Source: a virus. Taken from it: a DNA stretch of 20,068 nucleotides. The notes under the pieces were generated by a model that did not search any database, was not told where the DNA came from, and saw only the letters and a program-made list of their open reading frames with translations. The translations under genes were made by a program, and so were the position numbers. Location: IMG/VR virus record IMGVR_UViG_3300035698_012957, positions 1-20,068 of that record. One strand, 5' to 3'. Below are positions 850-20,016 of the stretch, in pieces. Each line of letters starts with the position of its first letter. Position 1 is the first letter of the stretch.

Positions 850-1088
850 TGCACCATACAATTTACGGAAAATCTGACTGCCTTTTTTGTGACAAAGCTA
901 AAGAATTACTAACTTACTATAATTGCCTTTATAACTATGTAGATATAGGCAAACTTTCAGCAGACCAAAGAGAGTATCTTATAGTAACTTATAATATGAA
1001 GACCGTCCCTATCATACTAGATGATTATGGTAAATTAATAGGCGGCTATAAGGAAGTACGTACCCTTTATGAAAAAACAAGCCAATAG
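849..1088 (+). CDS. grx: Glutaredoxin
   Basis: A small thioredoxin-fold oxidoreductase, 79 residues, close to the usual phage glutaredoxin length. It shows the dithiol active site C11-L-F-C14 after the first beta strand, the cis-proline motif T52-V-P54, and the Gly-Gly pair at 65-66 that contacts glutathione. Such phage proteins commonly supply electrons to ribonucleotide reductase; no reductase is seen in this window, so the partner is unknown. The ATG at 849 shares its A with the stop of the endonuclease gene and has AGAGAG about 8 bases upstream. A longer ATG start at 825 is possible, but it adds residues outside the fold and has no well-placed ribosome site. The 3' end overlaps phoH by 20 bases. 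Confidence 0.88.
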   Translation: MHHTIYGKSDCLFCDKAKELLTYYNCLYNYVDIGKLSADQREYLIVTYNMKTVPIILDDYGKLIGGYKEVRTLYEKTSQ

Positions 1089-1758
1089 TATAGGTTTACA
1101 CAGCCTAAAAGATATTAAACCGCTGACGCCAGCACAACGAGAAGTATACAAAACTTTTAATGACTATCACTTAGTATTACATGGACTAGCAGGGACAGGT
1201 AAAAGCTTATTAGCTATGTATCTTGCATTGCAAAGAGTATTAAGTAGTAAATCTCAGTATGACACTATCTATATTATTAGAAGTGCTGTACCGACAAGAA
1301 GTTTAGGGCATTTAAAAGGTGACTTAGACGATAAGGTAAAAGAGTATGAAATGCCTTACATACAGTTATGTAACTTTATGTTCGATGGTGTTGAAAATCC
1401 CTATGAGATTCTTAAGCGCCAAAACAAAATCAAATTCTTAGTTACTTCTTATGTTAGAGGTTTAACATTAGATAACGCTATTATAATAGTAGATGAGTTC
1501 CAGAATCTAAATTTTCACGAACTTGACTCTATTATTACTAGGCTAGGACAAGATGCCAAGATCATCTTTAGTGGTGATTATGAGCAGAGTGATTTAGGTC
1601 ACAAAGAAAAGAAAGATGTTCTTAAGTTCCTAGATATTATAGAAAGAATGGAAGACTACTTTAACTATATTGAGTTTGACATTGAAGACGTTGTTAGAAG
1701 TGGAATGGTAAAAGACTATCTATTAGCGAAAAGAGAAGTACTTAAAAAAGAGAGTTAG
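1069..1758 (+). CDS. phoH: PhoH-like P-loop ATPase
   Basis: A cytoplasmic ATPase of the PhoH family, common in marine phages. Its role in infection is not established; RNA or phosphate metabolism has been proposed. Walker A is GLAGTGKS (39-46) and Walker B is IIIVDEFQN (138-146). The PhoH signature region lies between them as RSAVPTRSLGHLKGDL (71-86), and a sensor-like SGDYEQSD follows at about 168-175. The length of 229 residues matches the short phage PhoH form. The ATG at 1069 lies inside the glutaredoxin gene, and its ribosome site (AAGGAAG, about 12 bases upstream) is weak, so translation is probably coupled. The stop TAG at 1756-1758 is followed almost at once by the nuclease gene. Confidence 0.93.
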   Translation: MKKQANSIGLHSLKDIKPLTPAQREVYKTFNDYHLVLHGLAGTGKSLLAMYLALQRVLSSKSQYDTIYIIRSAVPTRSLGHLKGDLDDKVKEYEMPYIQLCNFMFDGVENPYEILKRQNKIKFLVTSYVRGLTLDNAIIIVDEFQNLNFHELDSIITRLGQDAKIIFSGDYEQSDLGHKEKKDVLKFLDIIERMEDYFNYIEFDIEDVVRSGMVKDYLLAKREVLKKES

Positions 1759-1762
1759 GCAA

Positions 1763-2230
1763 ATCGCCAACCCAAGTAAAATAAAAGGTTCAGCTTACGA
1801 ACTAAAATTAGCTAAGTATTTGAGTAAAGAATTAAGCTTAGACGTTAAAAGAGTCCCCCTTAGTGGCGCATTGCCCGGTCTTAAGGGGGACTTATACGTG
1901 CCTAAAATTCTAAGGGAATTTCCTTTTGTAATTGAAGCTAAGCACTATAAAGAAATAGAGTTCAAAAACTTACTCACAGCCAAAAGTAATGATATATATA
2001 TGTTCTGGGAACAGACTCTTAGAGAAACTGCCGAAGTTAATGAATACTTTGGTACTGAGAAGATTCCTGTCTTAATGTTTAAATGGGACAGGAGTAAAGA
2101 TTTTGTAAGTTGGAGTTGTGACAAGATTTCTTGTGAAAACGAGTTCACTATACAAGCTCATGGACATAAATTTAAGATAGCCCTATTAGACCAGTGGCTT
2201 CCACGTGCTAAAGTAGCCTACGGACTTTAA
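1763..2230 (+). CDS. PD-(D/E)XK nuclease, Holliday junction resolvase-like, apparent ATC start
   Basis: A predicted DNA endonuclease of about 155 residues. With the start used here the protein begins (M)ANPSKIKGSAYELKLAKYL. The helix with Glu13, Gly-Asp at 42-43 (KGDLYVP) and E58-A-K60 in FVIEAKHYK form a PD-(D/E)XK core like that of archaeal Hjc resolvases and their phage relatives. It probably acts in recombination or in resolving replication intermediates, alongside the exonuclease downstream. The start is odd. The frame is open back to 1727 but has no ATG, GTG or TTG before the TTG at 1820, which would remove the conserved first helix and has no ribosome site. An ATC at 1763 sits 8 bases after AAGAGAG (1748-1754). 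ATC could be a true rare start or a changed ATG. Confidence 0.75.
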   Translation: MANPSKIKGSAYELKLAKYLSKELSLDVKRVPLSGALPGLKGDLYVPKILREFPFVIEAKHYKEIEFKNLLTAKSNDIYMFWEQTLRETAEVNEYFGTEKIPVLMFKWDRSKDFVSWSCDKISCENEFTIQAHGHKFKIALLDQWLPRAKVAYGL

Positions 2231-2308: not shown

Positions 2309-3160
2309 ATGTCAAAAGGCTGGAACGACCTAGCAGAAGTAGAAAACGTAAGCACGTTGAAGCAAAATTTATTACTTATAGATGGTAATAACTTAGCCTA
2401 TAGATGGCTGAGAAGAAATAATCACGGAACGTTTTCTGAAGATTACGATAGAACAATTAGTAGCTTAGCTAACAGCTATAACGCTATAAGAGTAATTGTA
2501 TGCTTTGATTTTGGTAAGAGTTATTACCGAATGGAACTCTTAGACTCGTATAAAGGTACAAGAGAAAAACCAACAGACCCAGAAGAAGTAGAACGCTATG
2601 AGAACTTCTTCGGCTGTCTTAATACGTTACCTGATAATATCTCACAAGAATCTTATAAATATCGCGGTGTTGAGGCCGATGATTTAATAACCTTCTTTGC
2701 TCAAAACTTAGCGGACGAGTACGAACATACATGGATCGTATCAAGCGATAAGGATATTTATCAATTAGTAGAAGATGATGTTAGTATATTTAACATCTAT
2801 TCTAGAAAGGAAATCACAGTGGATTCCTTAGTAGAACAGTTTGACTTAACTCCTGATGAGTATAGACTTGCTCGTATCATATCCGGAGATAAAAGCGATA
2901 ATATTATTGGTATCGAGGGCATCGGGGATAAGCGTTCTATGGATTTAGCTAGAGAATATAAAACATTAGATAACCTAATTAGCGCATTACCTATTAATAA
3001 AAGTTCAAAGTTCATTCAAAACCTAAATAATGGTATTGATACCTTACGCCATAATGAACAATTAGTGAGTCTTAAAGACTATCATGAAGCTGCTATTAGG
3101 GCAGGTAAGATGGGTGACGAAGCTTGGGAGGAGTTAGCTCAAGTTGCCAGAAATACTTAA
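2309..3160 (+). CDS. 5'-3' exonuclease / flap endonuclease (FEN-like PIN domain)
   Basis: A 283-residue nuclease related to T5 D15, T4 RNase H and the Pol I N-terminal domain. It removes RNA primers or 5' flaps, or degrades DNA 5' to 3'. The metal-binding acidic residues are visible in order: D25 (LLIDGNN), D67 (CFDFGK), E122-x-D124-D125 (GVEADDL), D147 and D149 (SSDKD), and D194 and D197 (SGDKSDN). A helix-hairpin-helix (GIEGIGDKRS, 201-210) follows and binds DNA. The helical arch between the first sites includes YKGTREKP (81-88). The length is typical. The ATG at 2309 has GGAG 6 to 10 bases upstream and follows a promoter-like gap, so it probably begins a transcription unit that runs to 6345. 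Confidence 0.93.
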   Translation: MSKGWNDLAEVENVSTLKQNLLLIDGNNLAYRWLRRNNHGTFSEDYDRTISSLANSYNAIRVIVCFDFGKSYYRMELLDSYKGTREKPTDPEEVERYENFFGCLNTLPDNISQESYKYRGVEADDLITFFAQNLADEYEHTWIVSSDKDIYQLVEDDVSIFNIYSRKEITVDSLVEQFDLTPDEYRLARIISGDKSDNIIGIEGIGDKRSMDLAREYKTLDNLISALPINKSSKFIQNLNNGIDTLRHNEQLVSLKDYHEAAIRAGKMGDEAWEELAQVARNT

Positions 3161-7304: not shown

Positions 7305-8291
7305 TTATTGTCCATCAGGGTCGTTATTGCCCTTAAATTTAATTGAATTGGTTTCAAAGTTTTCTTCTGTTTTTTCAATACTACTAACTATCTTACCACA
7401 CTGGTTCTGGCATAGAGTAAAAGCTCTGTCATACCCTTGTAAATATTGATCTAGTTTATCCCAATAGTTAGATGCTAAAATCTTTTCAATAGGATGATTA
7501 AATCCATTCAGTACTTCAGAGTAACTTTCAGGATAAAAAAACTTACTCTGATCTTTGTCGTAATAGTGTCCCCCAGTCCAACAGCATCTAAATACTAATC
7601 CTTCTGGTGATATATACCATTTAGGGTAATCTCCCCAACTACAAATGATCTTCTTAGGAAGCTCATCGAGGTTTGTTTTCCTCTTAATATGTATATATTC
7701 TGGATTAGTTGCAGGATTATGGCTTCGATTAGACTTGACTGTGCTAAATGTGGTAAAATTCAAATCTTTAGCCATCTGTTTGGCCTCTTCAACTTGATGT
7801 TCGTTGTGACTAAACACAATATATTTCCAATGTACTTGCGTATTGCCTGTTGCTATTACTGCTTTAGCGTTTGATAGTACCTTTTCGAAATTAGTATTAA
7901 TTCGATATAAAGAATGAGTGTCAGTTAATCCGTCTAAATCAAAATTGATTATGTCTCTTTTAGTTAGTATGTTACCTACATCTGTCCAGTAGTCAGTGTC
8001 ATGAACACCTCCATTTGTGTGGATCAGTAATCTAGTATCATGTTCCTTAACATAAGAAATAATTTCACGAAATTCTTTATTCATTATACTATCACCAAAA
8101 TTACCGTTTAATACCATCCAATCTAGATTTCGTAGAAATTCAGGGTAAAATAGCTTTTTAAAGTTTTTTAAGGTTATAGTGTATAATTTATCATTTAAAT
8201 TAATACGTAAAGGTTTAATTCTATGACATGCAGGGCACGCCGCGTTACATCTGAATGTTAGTTCAGTAGTAACCTGTCTATATTTTTTCAT
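7305..8291 (-). CDS. Radical SAM enzyme with C-terminal SPASM-like domain
   Basis: 328 residues. The radical SAM cluster motif is C15-x3-C19-x2-C22 (FRCNAACPACH) on the first strand, and LLIHTNGG (88-95) and INFDLDGL (115-122) match later strands of the barrel. The C-terminus carries C217, the pair C236-C237 in SPEGLVFRCCW, and C294-x3-C298, a SPASM-like auxiliary iron-sulfur site. SPASM enzymes usually modify peptides or proteins. The gene lies between a tail fibre gene and the beta-helix gene, so a virion protein is the likely target; this is inference. It starts at a TAATG overlap with the fibre gene and has no good ribosome site of its own, so it depends on translation of the fibre. Confidence 0.85.
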   Translation of the reverse strand: MKKYRQVTTELTFRCNAACPACHRIKPLRINLNDKLYTITLKNFKKLFYPEFLRNLDWMVLNGNFGDSIMNKEFREIISYVKEHDTRLLIHTNGGVHDTDYWTDVGNILTKRDIINFDLDGLTDTHSLYRINTNFEKVLSNAKAVIATGNTQVHWKYIVFSHNEHQVEEAKQMAKDLNFTTFSTVKSNRSHNPATNPEYIHIKRKTNLDELPKKIICSWGDYPKWYISPEGLVFRCCWTGGHYYDKDQSKFFYPESYSEVLNGFNHPIEKILASNYWDKLDQYLQGYDRAFTLCQNQCGKIVSSIEKTEENFETNSIKFKGNNDPDGQ

Positions 8292-10871: not shown

Positions 10872-13800
10872 TTATATTCCTGTAGCTATAAAAGTAAACA
10901 TCGCGCCTGACTCAACTAGAGTAGCATTTGATGAATAATATAGTCTTATATTGCTTTCGTTTTGATCTGCACTCATTATCACATGGGTAGGGATAGCTAG
11001 TGCGTTACTTGGGTTTACTATTGACACAGCAATCTGAGGATTATTAATAAATCCTACATTAGCGTAATTAACTGCTTGATTACCTGTACTATCAGGAGCA
11101 TAAGCATAAGTGTCATTAAAGGTTTTTTGATCCAGAGTTACATAGTAATTAAAGCTATCTATAGTATAATTATATAGAGAAGGATTACTATTGTTAATTT
11201 CGTATAATAGTTGGAAGTATCTAAAAGTTCTACTACCAGTGCTAAATACTTGGAAGCCGTCATCTACTGATGAAGCAGCGAATACACTAATATCAGTGTT
11301 ACCATTAGCCCAAGCATTAGGGTCTGTATCAGAAGTTCTAATCTTAATTACACTAGATACTGCTGTGGGTGACCCTTCAAAAGTACCTATACCGGCCGCA
11401 TCTCCAAATTGTTCTAAGTTTACTAACTTGTAACTACCAGAACTTGTGGTTAAGTTAGCGAAGGTATTACCCCCTGTAGCTACACCATTAGCATAGAAAG
11501 TTTCGCCTAATACTATAGCATTAGCGTTAACTACGCCTGCAATTAGCGCATATGAGTTAGAATTAGAAACATCTCCAGTATGTTGGCCTTCATTCCATAT
11601 AGCGTATACATTACCTAAACTACCACCACTTTGTAATGTTCTGTTAATAGTACTATAAGTAACTGCTGCTGCATTAGCATTAGAGTATCCTAATAATGTC
11701 CCAATTCCTTGAGCACCACCAGTATTACTATCTATAAGAATATTAGCTGTAGCACTTAGTGCCTCAGGATCACCTGTTGCGCCCGAAGCTATAGTTATTC
11801 TAAAATCATTATAAGTATCTACAGTAGCTACCGAAGCCTGTACGTTGACATATATAGAACCTGTTAAACTTCTACCAACATCACGAATACTTGTTTGGTA
11901 TATACCATTACTTTCTGTAGTTAAATCCGTTGGTGTTCCTATGACTACTGCTAGTCCCGTAGAAGTACCATTACTATTCTCAGTTGGGGTAGAAGGCACG
12001 CCCCCACTATAAGGGTCTGCTGCATAACTAAAGCCGCCATTATCAGAATTAGCTAAACTTTCATATATACCATTTTGATAGTTATCATTAGGTATTCCTA
12101 CAAATACATTACCTGTAGGAGTGTCTTCGCTCCAAGTTTTGAAAACATTAGCGTTTTCTGGTGCTGTAGTAGTAACTGCTACCCCAACAGTATCTGAACT
12201 ATAGTTACCGCTAGTATCTCTGGTCTTAGCTAAATAGGTATGAATACCGTAGCTATCTATTTGTACAACTTTTCTCGTCGATCCAGCACTGATTATAGCT
12301 ACACTAGAAGCGGTGCTAAAAGCAGTACCATAAGTACTAGAAGCTACAGCTCCGGGAACTCTTCTAACTACTACTTCTTTTAAGTCAAGATCCCTAAATT
12401 CTCCAGCGTCATTTCTATAATAATCCCAAAGTAAATTAACTGTATCACCAACTTGACCACCTGTCAAATTTTTAATATTTAAGGGTTGGGCAGTCTTGCC
12501 TAGTAGGTCCAATTCAATAATAGAAGTAGTACCCGTTATTTGCTTATTAAGAGGAGTTACTTGTACTATAACTTTAGTAGGTATCCCACTTACTTGTCCT
12601 TCTAGGTTATTAATAGTAAAGTTCATATGACCTTCAGAATCTACTCCGGTAGCCGGTAACTTTACCGTGTTAAAGGTAGTTAAGTTGAATCCTGTTACAG
12701 AGTCAGTTAGATCATCGTCGGTATCAACGCCGGATAATTTATAGGACACTTCATAGTCGGTAACTTCTTGTGCCACAATGTGATCAAATACAACAGTTAC
12801 TCTAGAAGATACTCCTACAGTTGTGTCTCTATATAAAGTTTCTACTAACTTTAGTCCTTCAACTCTCGAAATAGGAATAGTACTGATTATAATTGATTGA
12901 CTTACTGTCTTACTTCTTCTACTATTACTATTTACATTATAAGCTCTAACTATGTGTAATCCTTCATTTAGATCTTTAATAGTTTTATCACTACTTAAAG
13001 ATAGTGCTTCAAAAGTACTACTTAGCGCTACTTGATAAACGTTATTATTAGCTAATCTAAAATTACCTTGGTCTACGGGATAATCAATTGTCAAAGTTCT
13101 GGCACCTATAGTTACATTACCGATTTTACCTGGTAGTAAATCTTTAGAAATATTAATAGCAGTAGTTCCACTAACATTACCCGTTAGTGGGCTTGCAAAT
13201 TTAACTTTATAAATATGATTAGCTGTTAGATGGGCGTTATAGTAAGCATCCCCAGAGTCATAACTAGTATTAGCAATAGCGTAAGTATTACCAGAGTATA
13301 GAGCAACATTATCTCCTTGCTCTATAATAGGTACATTATATTCATCAACTTCTACTCTAATATCTGTTTCTGATCCTGATAAATTACTAACAACAATATT
13401 AGAATTGCTAAGAGTACCTGTGTACTCGCTAGGATTATGTAATAATCCATCAATAAATACTCTTACATCAGATAAGGTTCTAGCAGGATTATTTAGTGGT
13501 TGTGTAAAAGAGCCACTTGAAACAGGAATAGTATTATTATAAATCCTAGTTTGTTTACTACCCTCTAAATAAACTACATTATTAGAAAAATGCTCAGTTG
13601 ATAGTATTTGAGCTATTTCTAAGTAGAACGGAGAAGAGTCGACTGCAGTTAACAATTGAGTACCATCGTTAGCAAGTGAATTATTAATTTTTAATGTATT
13701 TGTATTTAAGTCGTAGGATACTATATTAGAACTAAACTTAGTTAAGTCAGACCTATATCCTACGAAGTTTAGAAGCCCTGAAGTATTAGATTTTTCTTTA

Positions 13801-16800
13801 ACAGGGATAGAAGCATAGTCGTCACCTTTTAGCCCATTAAAACTAGAATCATTAGTGGCTAGTACGTGCTTAAAGAAATTATCGTCAAATACAGAATTTA
13901 AACTAGGTACTTGGAATTCGATATTTTGGCTCACACCACCTACTTCGTCTACTCCTACATAAGCATTACATAGTAGAGGAATTACTCCTAATCGTGAAGT
14001 AAAGCCATTCTTTCCAATAATACTAATAGCAGTATTAGGAACTACATCGTCAATATTACTAGTAGAGGTAATCTGTAATCCAGAGTCTACAACTTGAGAA
14101 GAAGTGACATAGTAGTAGTCATCGGGCTTAGCTAATTCATAATTAGTTTGAAAGGCAGAAGGATATCCTGTAGTATCAGTATAACTATCCACTTGAAGAT
14201 TAACACTAACAGAACCGTCAGAACTTCTTACTGGATAAGAGTCGATCTGTAAAATAGGCTCAGGCGGAGCAACTAATTGGCTAAAAGTATCGACGTAAGC
14301 AGTAGGGGTGTAATTAATAATGGTATCTGAGTCAGTATATACATTACTAACGTACTCTACGCCCGTAACCGTTACCTCTTCATCAGTATCTCTAGCGATT
14401 TTAGTTACTTTGAATAGTTTATCAGAGGTAGCAGTATAATGGTTGTCAGGGTTAACTTCCCCCAAAGCCCACAGGTCTCCAACCTGAGGAATAGTGTCCG
14501 CAGTAAAAGCAACGTTAGTAGTGCTATACTCTTTAGTATGTGGATTGAATTTTTGAATTACATTGAAACGACCAAAGTCTGCTCCTGCTTCTACATTACC
14601 TGTACTAGATAGGTCATAAAGTACATTACTTAATAGGTAAGAATCAACTCTATTATCTTTACCTTTAATTATTCTCAAGGCAAGAGGTAGAGTATTAGCA
14701 GTAAAGGTAGATGCAGTAATTGCGGGAGAAGTGAAATGCTCTACATAAACATTTTGTTCACTAACTACAGAATTAGCGGTTATTCTACCTCCAAAACCAT
14801 ACGCAACACCTTGAGTTTTCATTTGAACTGCAATTATGGCTCCTACAGGCAATTCAGAAGCTTCTGATCCTGTAGCAAAGGTAGCAAATCTTCTTAAATA
14901 CTTACTAGCAGCTATAGAATATTGTCCGAATCGCATAGATTGACTTCTTCTATCTACTCCTTCTAAGTTAACAGAATCAACCTTTTCTATTTGATTCTGG
15001 TCTATAAGGGCGCGAGGGTCTTCTACTCTAATAGTTTCTCGTTTGTAATGATTAGTAGGATCGACAAAGGTTACGTCTATAGCGGATATGACGTCGCTTT
15101 CTTTACTACCGAATATAGTGAAAGAATCCTTAACTATATTAGTCTCATTAAATACTGCAATAGGTAGCTCATCAGGTAAATCCATATTTAGGATAATTTT
15201 ACCTTTGTAGTATGTAGGAACTGCTCTAATGGTTGAAGTAACTTGATTTACTATGCTAATAACAGAAGCCTCACTAGCTATAATTAAGTTAGTTATGAAA
15301 CGACGTTCTTTAATTTGTATCGAAGCGTTAAGCCCAGAAAGCTTATCTTTAACTCCTGTGTGCGTATTTCTAGCTTTGTGCTGATAAGTACTATTAGCGT
15401 AGCCATCTACACCAAGGTATTGTCCGGTAGTGATATCACAAGCGTCACAGTAAACTGCCGCTCTATAGAAATTATACTTATCTATATAGTCTTCAGAAAT
15501 ACCTAATCCATAAGACGTATTAGTTAATAAATCATATATAATCCATACAGGATTCTGCGTCCATGCATTTACAAAAGTACCGTCCCATACGCCTTCATAC
15601 AGAACGGGATTAGCGTCTGTTAACACCACATCAGTGCCTGATTTTTGTAGGTAATATCCTGTAGTAGGATACCCACTATCCCCAGAATCCGCAATTTCTA
15701 GATATCTCCAATCTATATCACCGTTTTCAATAATAGGTTGATTAAAATTACTTGGAACTTTAACTACCAATCCTTTAACCATAGAAGTAAATGTAGGTAT
15801 TGTCCCCGCGTACTCAGCATTAGAACGTATAGCATAGCCTATTAAGGCTGTTCTAGGATAGGCCATATCATCAAATTCAATCTCATCCCAGCCTTCAAAA
15901 CTAATATCATCTCTGAAACGCGAAGATTCACTATCATCTGATATTTTTTCTACAGTAAACCTGTAACCTAGTGGGTCTTTTTTTTCATCAGGAATAACTA
16001 TTAAGTTAGTAGTCTTATAAGGGGTATTAGTCTTGCCCGATATTACTTTCTCAGAGCTAGTAATAATATCTGTTCCAGTATTATCATATAAGGTTATCTT
16101 ATAGGTTACGGTATGGTCTAAAATATCTCCCTTATCTGTAGTCTGTAATAGTACGTTAACTCTAAGTCTGAAAGATAAAGCATCCCACCCAGTAATACTA
16201 GTATTCTGTAAGGTAACAGCTGCACGAGGTATAGAAGATAAGTTACCCTTCTTTAACCTAACTGTAGAGGACATAGATTGTGGCGTAACTACCCTATCAC
16301 CGAAAATACCTAAAGGTGCTTGATGTATAGTACCGTTTGTAGTCAATGATCTGAAGTTAGCTGCATCCTCGTTACCATCATCGTCAATAAGATCATCAAT
16401 AAAACCGTCATTAAGTTCAATATCTATAGGACCATTAGGATTAATTCTATATAGAGGTCCTTCTCCTAAAGCCGTAGTTAAGAATAGGATATCAGTAGAA
16501 AATAAATTATTAGGTGTTTCGGTAGGAGCATATTGTGCACCACCACCACCTTTACCGCCGCCCTTGTTATGTACTTTAATCCCGTTAGCGATGTATGTAT
16601 GATGTATGTCTACAGTGAAGTTAAATGTTTCCTGAGGAATTTCATCTGTTATAGACATTATGGGACAAGGATAGTTTTCTTCAGTAATTAGTGCGTCATC
16701 GACTTCTAAAGTACCAATCTCTACAAATTTATTATATTCATTCAATACCCAATGATTTGGAGTAACTAATAATTCAGTATCCCAAGCTTCTATTCTAATA

Positions 16801-16991
16801 ACCTTATCATATTCATGGTAAAACGTATCTGTTACTAATCCTATAACAGATTGTCCTTCTGAGTTGAAAGACATAACTTCGTCCCCAGTAATAATATCTT
16901 CAATTAAGATATATCCTGTAGGTGTACTAATCTTAGTACCGCGAGCAAAGCAACCACCCTTTTCACCTGTGATTAAAATTTGTTTTGTCAT
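10872..16991 (-). CDS. J: Giant tail-tip attachment protein J (host specificity) with N-terminal Hint domain
   Basis: 2039 residues, nearly twice lambda gpJ (1132). J forms the central tail tip and contacts the host receptor. After a Gly-rich start and a Hint domain (14-142), the protein resumes KGGGKGGGG and follows lambda J. ILFLTTALGEGPLYR (168-182) matches lambda LLSVIDAISEGP. YEGVWDGTFVNAW (465-477) and IIYDLLTNTSYGLG (484-497) match the lambda stretch IWDGTF through YGMG, and VDPTNHY to RRSQSMR (643-687) matches the lambda VDPNNGW to SRGQAHR region. Fibronectin III-like modules are likely near 1370-1600. The C-terminal third is Ser/Thr/Asn-rich beta sequence with no lambda counterpart and is probably receptor-binding. 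The gene starts one base after the I-like stop, and its ribosome site is weak, so it is probably coupled to I. Confidence 0.93.
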   Translation of the reverse strand: MTKQILITGEKGGCFARGTKISTPTGYILIEDIITGDEVMSFNSEGQSVIGLVTDTFYHEYDKVIRIEAWDTELLVTPNHWVLNEYNKFVEIGTLEVDDALITEENYPCPIMSITDEIPQETFNFTVDIHHTYIANGIKVHNKGGGKGGGGAQYAPTETPNNLFSTDILFLTTALGEGPLYRINPNGPIDIELNDGFIDDLIDDDGNEDAANFRSLTTNGTIHQAPLGIFGDRVVTPQSMSSTVRLKKGNLSSIPRAAVTLQNTSITGWDALSFRLRVNVLLQTTDKGDILDHTVTYKITLYDNTGTDIITSSEKVISGKTNTPYKTTNLIVIPDEKKDPLGYRFTVEKISDDSESSRFRDDISFEGWDEIEFDDMAYPRTALIGYAIRSNAEYAGTIPTFTSMVKGLVVKVPSNFNQPIIENGDIDWRYLEIADSGDSGYPTTGYYLQKSGTDVVLTDANPVLYEGVWDGTFVNAWTQNPVWIIYDLLTNTSYGLGISEDYIDKYNFYRAAVYCDACDITTGQYLGVDGYANSTYQHKARNTHTGVKDKLSGLNASIQIKERRFITNLIIASEASVISIVNQVTSTIRAVPTYYKGKIILNMDLPDELPIAVFNETNIVKDSFTIFGSKESDVISAIDVTFVDPTNHYKRETIRVEDPRALIDQNQIEKVDSVNLEGVDRRSQSMRFGQYSIAASKYLRRFATFATGSEASELPVGAIIAVQMKTQGVAYGFGGRITANSVVSEQNVYVEHFTSPAITASTFTANTLPLALRIIKGKDNRVDSYLLSNVLYDLSSTGNVEAGADFGRFNVIQKFNPHTKEYSTTNVAFTADTIPQVGDLWALGEVNPDNHYTATSDKLFKVTKIARDTDEEVTVTGVEYVSNVYTDSDTIINYTPTAYVDTFSQLVAPPEPILQIDSYPVRSSDGSVSVNLQVDSYTDTTGYPSAFQTNYELAKPDDYYYVTSSQVVDSGLQITSTSNIDDVVPNTAISIIGKNGFTSRLGVIPLLCNAYVGVDEVGGVSQNIEFQVPSLNSVFDDNFFKHVLATNDSSFNGLKGDDYASIPVKEKSNTSGLLNFVGYRSDLTKFSSNIVSYDLNTNTLKINNSLANDGTQLLTAVDSSPFYLEIAQILSTEHFSNNVVYLEGSKQTRIYNNTIPVSSGSFTQPLNNPARTLSDVRVFIDGLLHNPSEYTGTLSNSNIVVSNLSGSETDIRVEVDEYNVPIIEQGDNVALYSGNTYAIANTSYDSGDAYYNAHLTANHIYKVKFASPLTGNVSGTTAINISKDLLPGKIGNVTIGARTLTIDYPVDQGNFRLANNNVYQVALSSTFEALSLSSDKTIKDLNEGLHIVRAYNVNSNSRRSKTVSQSIIISTIPISRVEGLKLVETLYRDTTVGVSSRVTVVFDHIVAQEVTDYEVSYKLSGVDTDDDLTDSVTGFNLTTFNTVKLPATGVDSEGHMNFTINNLEGQVSGIPTKVIVQVTPLNKQITGTTSIIELDLLGKTAQPLNIKNLTGGQVGDTVNLLWDYYRNDAGEFRDLDLKEVVVRRVPGAVASSTYGTAFSTASSVAIISAGSTRKVVQIDSYGIHTYLAKTRDTSGNYSSDTVGVAVTTTAPENANVFKTWSEDTPTGNVFVGIPNDNYQNGIYESLANSDNGGFSYAADPYSGGVPSTPTENSNGTSTGLAVVIGTPTDLTTESNGIYQTSIRDVGRSLTGSIYVNVQASVATVDTYNDFRITIASGATGDPEALSATANILIDSNTGGAQGIGTLLGYSNANAAAVTYSTINRTLQSGGSLGNVYAIWNEGQHTGDVSNSNSYALIAGVVNANAIVLGETFYANGVATGGNTFANLTTSSGSYKLVNLEQFGDAAGIGTFEGSPTAVSSVIKIRTSDTDPNAWANGNTDISVFAASSVDDGFQVFSTGSRTFRYFQLLYEINNSNPSLYNYTIDSFNYYVTLDQKTFNDTYAYAPDSTGNQAVNYANVGFINNPQIAVSIVNPSNALAIPTHVIMSADQNESNIRLYYSSNATLVESGAMFTFIATGI
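16566..16952 (-). other. Hint (intein-like) domain within J, 129 residues, Lys at +1
   Basis: Residues 14-142 of the J-like protein. Block A starts C14-FARGTKISTPTGYILIEDI. Block B is LLVTPNHWVL with Thr77 and His80. Block F/G is FTVDIHHTYIANGIKVHN, ending His141-Asn142. These are the catalytic residues of a mini-intein; there is no homing endonuclease insert. A splicing intein needs Cys, Ser or Thr after the final Asn, but here the next residue is Lys143. This matches bacterial intein-like (BIL, A-type) domains, which cleave their flanks rather than splice efficiently. The domain sits in a Gly-rich linker exactly where lambda J begins, so C-terminal cleavage would give a J chain starting KGGGKGGGG. 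Confidence 0.85.
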
Positions 16992-18481: not shown

Positions 18482-18887
18482 TGCTTCTATATACGAGATG
18501 AACACTATCAATCCAAGACGTTATGTAATCAATCATCACATAAGAATCCTGTTGAACGTGTATAAATCTCCCCCCTCCAATACACATGCCAAAATGAAAA
18601 GGTCTTCCACTTCGGGACTTAAACACTATTACATCATATTCTCGTGCTTTTGTCAAACTTACTTTCTTAGCATATTGGGTTGCCCACTCATCAATTTTCT
18701 CAAAAGTGACCTTCTTAATCCACGCTCTACCCATATTAGCCTTACCTTCAGGAAAATCTAGTATCTTCCATAAAGTGTCAAAATGAGTTATGCCTAGTTC
18801 TTCTTTGTATATTTGATCTATAAGTGAAATACAGTTAATGCCCATATAGTCATGTTTGTACTCCATATATTTACGATATTTGTTCAT
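18468..18887 (-). CDS. NlpC/P60-like cysteine peptidase, copy 1
   Basis: 139 residues. The triad candidates are Cys19 in YMGINCISLIDQIYKEELGI, His98 in PFHFGMCIGGG and His110 in RFIHVQQD. The block GI-x-C-x-x-LI-x-x-Y-x-EELGI is shared with the next gene, but the rest has diverged. The usual Ser or Gly after the Cys is replaced (NCISL). This is probably the second wall-acting or tip-maturing peptidase of the tail module; whether both are active is unknown. The ATG at 18887 lies inside the 3' end of the radical SAM gene (17-base overlap), with AAGAGA just upstream. Confidence 0.8.
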   Translation of the reverse strand: MNKYRKYMEYKHDYMGINCISLIDQIYKEELGITHFDTLWKILDFPEGKANMGRAWIKKVTFEKIDEWATQYAKKVSLTKAREYDVIVFKSRSGRPFHFGMCIGGGRFIHVQQDSYVMIDYITSWIDSVHLVYRSNEMV

Positions 18888-20016
18888 ACCAATCTCTTAA
18901 TTCTGGAAAAGTTTTTGAAAAATCTGAATTTCTTTTTTCATCCAAATTCATATTATAAGCTTTAAATGCTTTCGAAAGATAAGATAGATCCTCAGCTTCC
19001 ATGAACTTAATCCAATCCATCATGCTATCAGCTGTTTCAGGATCGACCACTCCTTTGAAAGTAGATAAAAATCTTTCGTACATACTTCTAGCCAATACTT
19101 TTTTATCTTTTGATAAAATTTGTATTGATTGAAAATTAGGGTTTATCTGAGTAGTTCCATGTATATAAAGATTATGTGTTTTACCCCACATGACTAATTT
19201 TGGCATACTGAATAATGAATACACATTAACTACAGAACTAATAGTTTTGATCCTGCTACCGTATGTTTCACATCCTTTGTTAAAAGTGTCCCAATCGAAA
19301 CCTGTTCTTATATATTCAGAAACTTCTTTATACCCATCACAGCTAGGCCATATAGTAACTTCATCAAATTTATCCCACATACTGATAAAGTCTTTAGTGT
19401 CAGGAAGTATACTAAGATTGGTGTTGTAAGTCAAACGTAGTTTGGTAAAGTTATTATCAATTAACCAATTCAATAATTTTAGATGTCCCTTAGCCATTAA
19501 GGGCTCTCCTCCTGCAAAATATATTTCCACAACGTGAGGTAATATCTTAGGTAAATCATTCCATAATACTTCATTATCCGACCAATTATCAATTAATACT
19601 TCTTTACGTCCTAATTCTTGTGCCCATCTAGTAGATATCTCAGGACCACACATTCTACATTTAAAATTACATATGTTACTAAATCGTATATCTATATACT
19701 TAGGCATTTGTAAAGGCACATTTTGAAGATAATCATAATCTTTCCAACGATTATTGACCTCCATTCTAGGACTCACGCTACTAGCTTCTTTACTGTAACA
19801 AATAGATTCACATTGCGCAGGTACTCCGCCATCTAGGAAGGTCTCCCTAACATTTTGATATTCTTCACTTTTCCATACAGAAATAGGAGACTCCGAAGAG
19901 TCTCCTAAGTTATAAGTAGTTTTATCTATAGAACCCTCAGAAAAGCAACAAACTTTATATTTGCCTTGTATGTTTCCATGCATATGAATCCATGGTAGGA
20001 TGCAACCTTTAATCAT
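18871..20016 (-). CDS. Twitch/SPASM-type radical SAM enzyme
   Basis: 381 residues. The radical SAM motif is C116-x3-C120-x2-C123 (SNICNFKCRMCGPE), with FAGGEPL (167-173) for SAM methionine binding and LRLTYNTN as a later barrel strand. Unusually, the cysteine-rich auxiliary region lies before the core: C5-x2-PWIHMHG, YKVCC (C23-C24), then C69 and C73. This resembles a SPASM/twitch module placed at the N-terminus. Such enzymes act on peptides or proteins. The gene opens the tail-tip cluster seen here and is a second, distantly related radical SAM gene, 10.6 kb from the first. Its ATG overlaps the end of the previous gene by 8 bases, and the ribosome site is poor. Confidence 0.87.
   Translation of the reverse strand: MIKGCILPWIHMHGNIQGKYKVCCFSEGSIDKTTYNLGDSSESPISVWKSEEYQNVRETFLDGGVPAQCESICYSKEASSVSPRMEVNNRWKDYDYLQNVPLQMPKYIDIRFSNICNFKCRMCGPEISTRWAQELGRKEVLIDNWSDNEVLWNDLPKILPHVVEIYFAGGEPLMAKGHLKLLNWLIDNNFTKLRLTYNTNLSILPDTKDFISMWDKFDEVTIWPSCDGYKEVSEYIRTGFDWDTFNKGCETYGSRIKTISSVVNVYSLFSMPKLVMWGKTHNLYIHGTTQINPNFQSIQILSKDKKVLARSMYERFLSTFKGVVDPETADSMMDWIKFMEAEDLSYLSKAFKAYNMNLDEKRNSDFSKTFPELRDWYEQIS

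Follow-up and report, generated by a model that had tools for sequence, protein, structure and literature searches.

Initiation at AUU, AUC or AUA (AUH) codons is already known as such. According to the account in PMC5472188, few of the non-canonical starts of bacteria have been characterised experimentally and IF3 represses them; its examples include infC, which starts with ATT in E. coli and ATC in Streptomyces, and the Streptomyces gene sigR, where a GTC start repressed by IF3 sets stoichiometry. As described in PMC10158994, IF3 demands Watson-Crick pairing at codon positions one and two, and at position three it favours the stronger pairs. IF3 sensitivity is also seen when ribosomes re-initiate close to a preceding stop codon, with genes V and VII of phage M13 serving as the model (PMC2268962).

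The gene considered here lies in what we call the window, the whole stretch of DNA that was analysed, which is one complete IMG/VR virus record of 20,068 bases and a single metagenomic one. It encodes a nuclease within the run phoH-nuclease-FEN-dUTPase-thyX (Table 1), and it shares with infC a probable start of the AUU/AUC type, at which initiation is selected against by IF3 in infC (on the account in PMC5472188) and may be here. The infC gene is an autoregulatory host gene, whereas the window gene belongs to a phage and has relatives with recurrent changes among AUG, UUG and AUH. The likeness to sigR would lie in a non-canonical start that sets a low stoichiometry in a tightly packed operon, and in misannotation in genomes; sigR differs in that its codon is GTC rather than AUH, that its case was made with mutants and that it is a host regulator, as PMC5472188 describes it. 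In common with M13 genes V and VII, a phage start lies a few nucleotides from an upstream stop, an arrangement that is IF3-sensitive in M13, but the M13 start is AUG and gene VII has no Shine-Dalgarno site, as given in PMC2268962.

Table 1. Features of the nuclease locus in the window
Feature	Position	Strand	Basis or remark
phoH-like ATPase gene	1069..1758	+	ORF; Pfam PhoH E 3.2e-39
phoH stop TAG	1756-1758	+	4 nt before nuclease ATC
Shine-Dalgarno-like site AAGAGAG of the nuclease	1748..1754	+	sequence; duplex energy -4.4 kcal/mol; 8 nt before ATC
Probable ATC start codon of the nuclease	1763..1765	+	homologous start column in relatives
PDDEXK_15 nuclease (Hjc/D14-like Holliday-junction resolvase family)	1763..2230	+	155 codons + stop; Pfam, phrog, alignment
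First usual in-frame start TTG, rejected	1820..1822	+	would delete K8, G9, E13
Flap endonuclease (T5 D15-like) gene, conserved downstream neighbour	2309..3160	+	profile matches; neighbours in relatives

The nuclease matches PDDEXK_15 (PF24608, phage putative PDDEXK endonuclease; E 8.9e-25, 87.9 bits against a curated cut-off of 27) and phrog_244, "RusA-like Holliday junction resolvase" (E 1.1e-21). E13 in helix 1, D43 and the pattern E58-x-K60 are invariant in 31 aligned sequences, and by analogy with Hjc we take E13, D43, E58 and K60 to be catalytic. Among solved structures, a profile made from the alignment of 31 relatives matches the resolvase 7bgs (E 0.0026) and has a weak match to Hjc itself (1hh1; E 0.14), so that on sequence similarity the protein qualifies as a putative Hjc-type Holliday-junction resolvase, with weak similarity to Hjc itself. 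Domain, active-site pattern and the order nuclease-FEN-dUTPase are common to the window and the T5 D14-type nucleases, PDDEXK_15 proteins and Hjc-like resolvases. T5-like D14 proteins are among the cultured relatives, and the order of the T5 D14 module, with a D14-like nuclease directly 5' of the flap endonuclease (FEN; D15) and dUTPase genes, is found in T5-like phages and the window alike; the T5-like members examined start with ATG, in contrast to the ATC of the window nuclease. A scan for relatives in bacterial genomes found none.

The nuclease frame is preceded by TAG at 1724-1726 and runs open from 1727 to its stop at 2228-2230. An earlier note on this DNA had held that no ATG, GTG or TTG precedes TTG 1820 and that the conserved first helix lies upstream of that codon, and both statements are borne out: TTG 1820 is the first usual start, at residue 20, and an alignment of 31 relatives shows no variation at K8, G9 and E13 (the ATC being residue 1). 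A start at TTG 1820 was rejected since it would lose these residues and has no ribosome site, its duplex energy with the 16S tail being -0.1 kcal/mol as against -4.4 for ATC 1763. The note's choice of ATC 1763 as the only well-placed codon behind AAGAGAG is likewise upheld; that motif is the sole ribosome site (about 77% of those in the family are as weak or weaker) and the codon falls in the homologous start column. In nine window genes ATH accounts for 9.3% of the in-frame codons, so one at this column by chance is unlikely once, and more so in several lineages. With an AUH codon at the homologous column and no usual start before the invariant residues, the gene would join the infC class of start codons, and translation very probably begins at AUC 1763, a codon that is very rare as a start. 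The proximity of the phoH stop to this codon is of the kind expected of translational coupling, which may operate here.

Relatives were surveyed at the column of the window's ATC. The first homology search found ATG or TTG there in 43/43 relatives. Of 320 loci searched in all, 234 had a nuclease match, and these reduced to 94 distinct viral-contig genes after removal of duplicates, the window included; L125, which is cut at its 5' end and lacks the motif, was dropped. The 94 start with ATG (78), TTG (11), ATT (3), ATC (the window) and ATA (1), in a sample enriched for relatives of the ATT clade because one homology search used an AUU member as query. Wherever a gene had no usual start the codon at the column was ATH (4/4). 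Pattern scans for ATH starts were also run, and every AUH contig was recovered by homology searches as well. The KIKG-only scan, whose pattern was too narrow, gave 0 matches, and the single match of another (L320) was dismissed, having an ATG immediately after. An ORF-wide census of start codons returned mainly antisense or internal artefacts, and its filter missed the AUH nuclease genes other than the window's, which was the only sense gene to stand out.

The three ATT genes (L255/L184/L253, L256/L252 and L257/L176/L251) each have GGAG 6 nt before the ATT. They retain this codon at DNA identities of 79.4-88.7% and across 39-65 synonymous codon differences, with variation in the neighbouring codons and the spacer. 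L256 codes for about 149 residues and has its first usual start at residue 92. In L257 a TTG stands in frame 4 codons before the ATT but falls within the ribosome site; the energies are -6.4 for ATT and -2.3 for TTG. The ATA gene (L254/L319), in which the contig ends, has AAGG 7 nt 5' of the ATA and a stop directly before it. Its upstream stop lies at a distance of 66 nt, and coupling is hence not a feature of all members.

Cultured phages provide a further set, of 28 genes chosen by hand whose starts were read: 19 have ATG, 5 GTG, one a clear AUH start and three a probable one. Two candidates were left out, AhSzq-1 (L321; stops in frame) and Melnitz-2 (L328; no family motif). The clear case is Bacillus phage Bobb (L324), which has no usual start before the conserved motif and whose site energy is -6.9 for ATA 1204 against +1.4 for the annotated ATG, 19 codons late. 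In 015DV002 (ATT), BSP12 (ATA) and Goe17 (ATA) annotation places the start a few codons earlier, at a TTG or ATG, with sites of -3.5, -3.0 and -1.0 against -6.6, -9.3 and -9.3 for the AUH codons; judged by sequence, these three genes probably use AUH starts despite the usual alternative. When the start columns are excluded from the tree, 6 changes are required to explain the 9 AUH rows, and starred branches force at least 5 changes between AUH and NUG, with the qualifications that the method was a quick one, that the window's branch is long and its placement unsure, and that 3 of the 9 rows are only probable and a fourth (L257) has the upstream TTG.

Several of these loci also carry homing endonuclease genes. 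In 015DV002 (L323, 219-1240) and Bobb (L324, 199-1210) one lies within the 5' coding region of the resolvase, with a truncated original resolvase 5' end upstream of it and a further N-terminus for the resolvase that begins at an AUH codon 1 nt after the endonuclease stop; their near relatives 000TH009 and Bp8p-C have an ATG resolvase start and no insert. In the window, a GIY-YIG/NUMOD3 homing endonuclease (115-849; region 78-851) lies directly 5' of glutaredoxin, whose ATG at 849 overlaps the endonuclease stop as TAATG. Upstream of the endonuclease, 24 bases at 78-101 resemble the glutaredoxin start (75% identical to the functional one, E 0.19) and look like a relic of it, as if the element had brought a replacement 5' end for the gene that it entered. 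No Rfam family for a group I intron or known RNA element reached its gathering score in 8 sources. Elsewhere in the window, a tail-tip J-like protein of 2039 aa (10872-16991, minus strand) carries, close to its N-terminus, a Hint domain resembling that of inteins (PT-HINT, E 1.9e-9), and among the tail genes the translations of 7305-8291 and 18871-20016, both on the minus strand, resemble radical-SAM proteins by eye (CxxxCxxC-type motifs).

The neighbouring genes of the same loci, glutaredoxin (grx), phoH, FEN, dUTPase and thyX, served as controls, with flagged rows judged by eye. No grx gene lacked a usual start (0/57); 1/80 FEN genes was flagged (L229, truncated at the N-terminus) and 2/119 thyX genes, both of which have a usual start on reading. 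For dUTPase, a weaker test, 35/71 were flagged through a badly placed start column, and by eye all have a usual start before the conserved block. Among the five flagged phoH genes (5/99), L037 and L031 have GTG (or ATA), L214 has GTG, L301 is unclear, perhaps with a frameshift, and L283 is a clear ATC. The L283 frame has no usual start before the conserved block and its ATC lies 6 nt after AAGGAG, a possible AUH start; AUH is therefore apparently not exclusive to the nuclease. Clear AUH starts number 1/426 in the controls and 5/94 in the nuclease (Fisher p 0.0009, a rough figure given related rows and enriched sampling), or by lineage 1 and 3 (p 0.02, also rough since rows are related). Inspection by eye of the ORF calls for the window, L251, L252 and L253 shows that every syntenic gene except the nuclease was called with a usual start near its 5' end; those calls also include a small number of weak or antisense ORFs that lack a good start, such as L253 7166-7528. 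A general relaxation of initiation in these phages is disfavoured, the nuclease standing alone among the syntenic genes.

The same comparison bears on the most serious rival explanation, that the AUC start is used but neutral, re-initiation beside the phoH stop and a strong ribosome site having let AUG decay without regulatory meaning. This is the alternative that survives best, though we think it unlikely on balance. It would account for the stop-to-start distance of 4 nt in the window and for a spacing of 1 nt from upstream stop to AUH codon in Bobb, 015DV002 and BSP12, and it agrees with ribosome sites that are at least as strong in AUH genes (median energy -6.4, n=5) as in ATG genes (-4.0, n=78). 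The latter difference is also consistent with compensation for a weak codon, and neutral decay sits badly with the near absence of AUH from neighbours in the same tightly packed loci and with a clade that held AUU while its spacer changed.

A one-base sequencing or assembly error, or a just-arisen mutation from ATG to ATC with loss of the start, is considerably less probable. The window's base is known from one record with no independent copy, its nearest nucleases are only about 50-55% identical, and ATG is the commonest codon in relatives. Against these points stand AUH codons at the same column in other contigs and in the cultured phage Bobb, the retention of ATT across 79% DNA identity and a remaining nuclease frame that is intact with its conserved residues. 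The earlier note had left room for a one-base change from ATG, and the comparison divides that suggestion: a change of one base fits the ATG or TTG of most relatives, but a lone error is improbable because others carry ATT or ATA. From the sequences, the AUC start looks genuine rather than the result of a sequencing error, and of a kind that standard gene finders overlook. Least credible of all is production of the nuclease solely as a PhoH-nuclease fusion by +1 ribosomal frameshifting near CTT AAA AAA GAG AGT TAG, for which the A-rich run there and a nuclease frame that is +1 to phoH and open over roughly the last 30 nt ahead of the phoH stop might speak, but in relatives where the nuclease adjoins phoH it has an ATG of its own at this column, the N-terminus aligns with the family starts exactly at the ATC, and no canonical +1 motif is apparent.

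We therefore return to initiation at AUC, and propose a mechanism that builds on what the sequences establish about the identity of the gene, the position of its start, the recurrence of AUH at the column and the conservation of AUU in one clade. AUC 1763-1765 would be read by initiator tRNA as fMet, with ribosomes arriving by way of AAGAGAG, very likely through re-initiation after the phoH stop. Third-base pairing at AUU, AUC or AUA is imperfect and would be disfavoured by IF3, so we expect little output, varying with host IF3 and the level of free 30S subunits. The several shifts of the family to AUH codons would fit a product needed in small amounts. To this reading as a whole, AUC initiation with a ribosome site and coupling giving low, IF3-dependent output, we assign a probability of roughly 0.7. 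The note's regulatory suggestion, a nuclease level kept low by way of IF3, gains plausibility from infC and sigR as analogues. The odds are about even that low output has been selected for. It is doubtful that IF3-dependent regulation is the purpose of the AUC start. Just as tentative is the broader idea that selection has favoured AUH codons again and again in phage nucleases of the Holliday-junction type. Such a start, of low rate and gated by IF3, would, like that of infC, tie a potentially harmful recombination nuclease to upstream translation and the initiation-factor state of the host.

We found no earlier description of recurrent AUH starts in a phage resolvase family in the open-licence literature. 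Gene finders that admit only NTG starts truncate or miss AUH genes, as with the Bobb resolvase, annotated 19 codons short, and L256, where the first usual start comes only at residue 92. If the AUH starts are real and regulated, these phages would control the amount of a recombination nuclease through the discrimination exercised by IF3, and the family would offer a natural series of AUG, UUG, GUG, AUA, AUU and AUC at one site for testing that discrimination.
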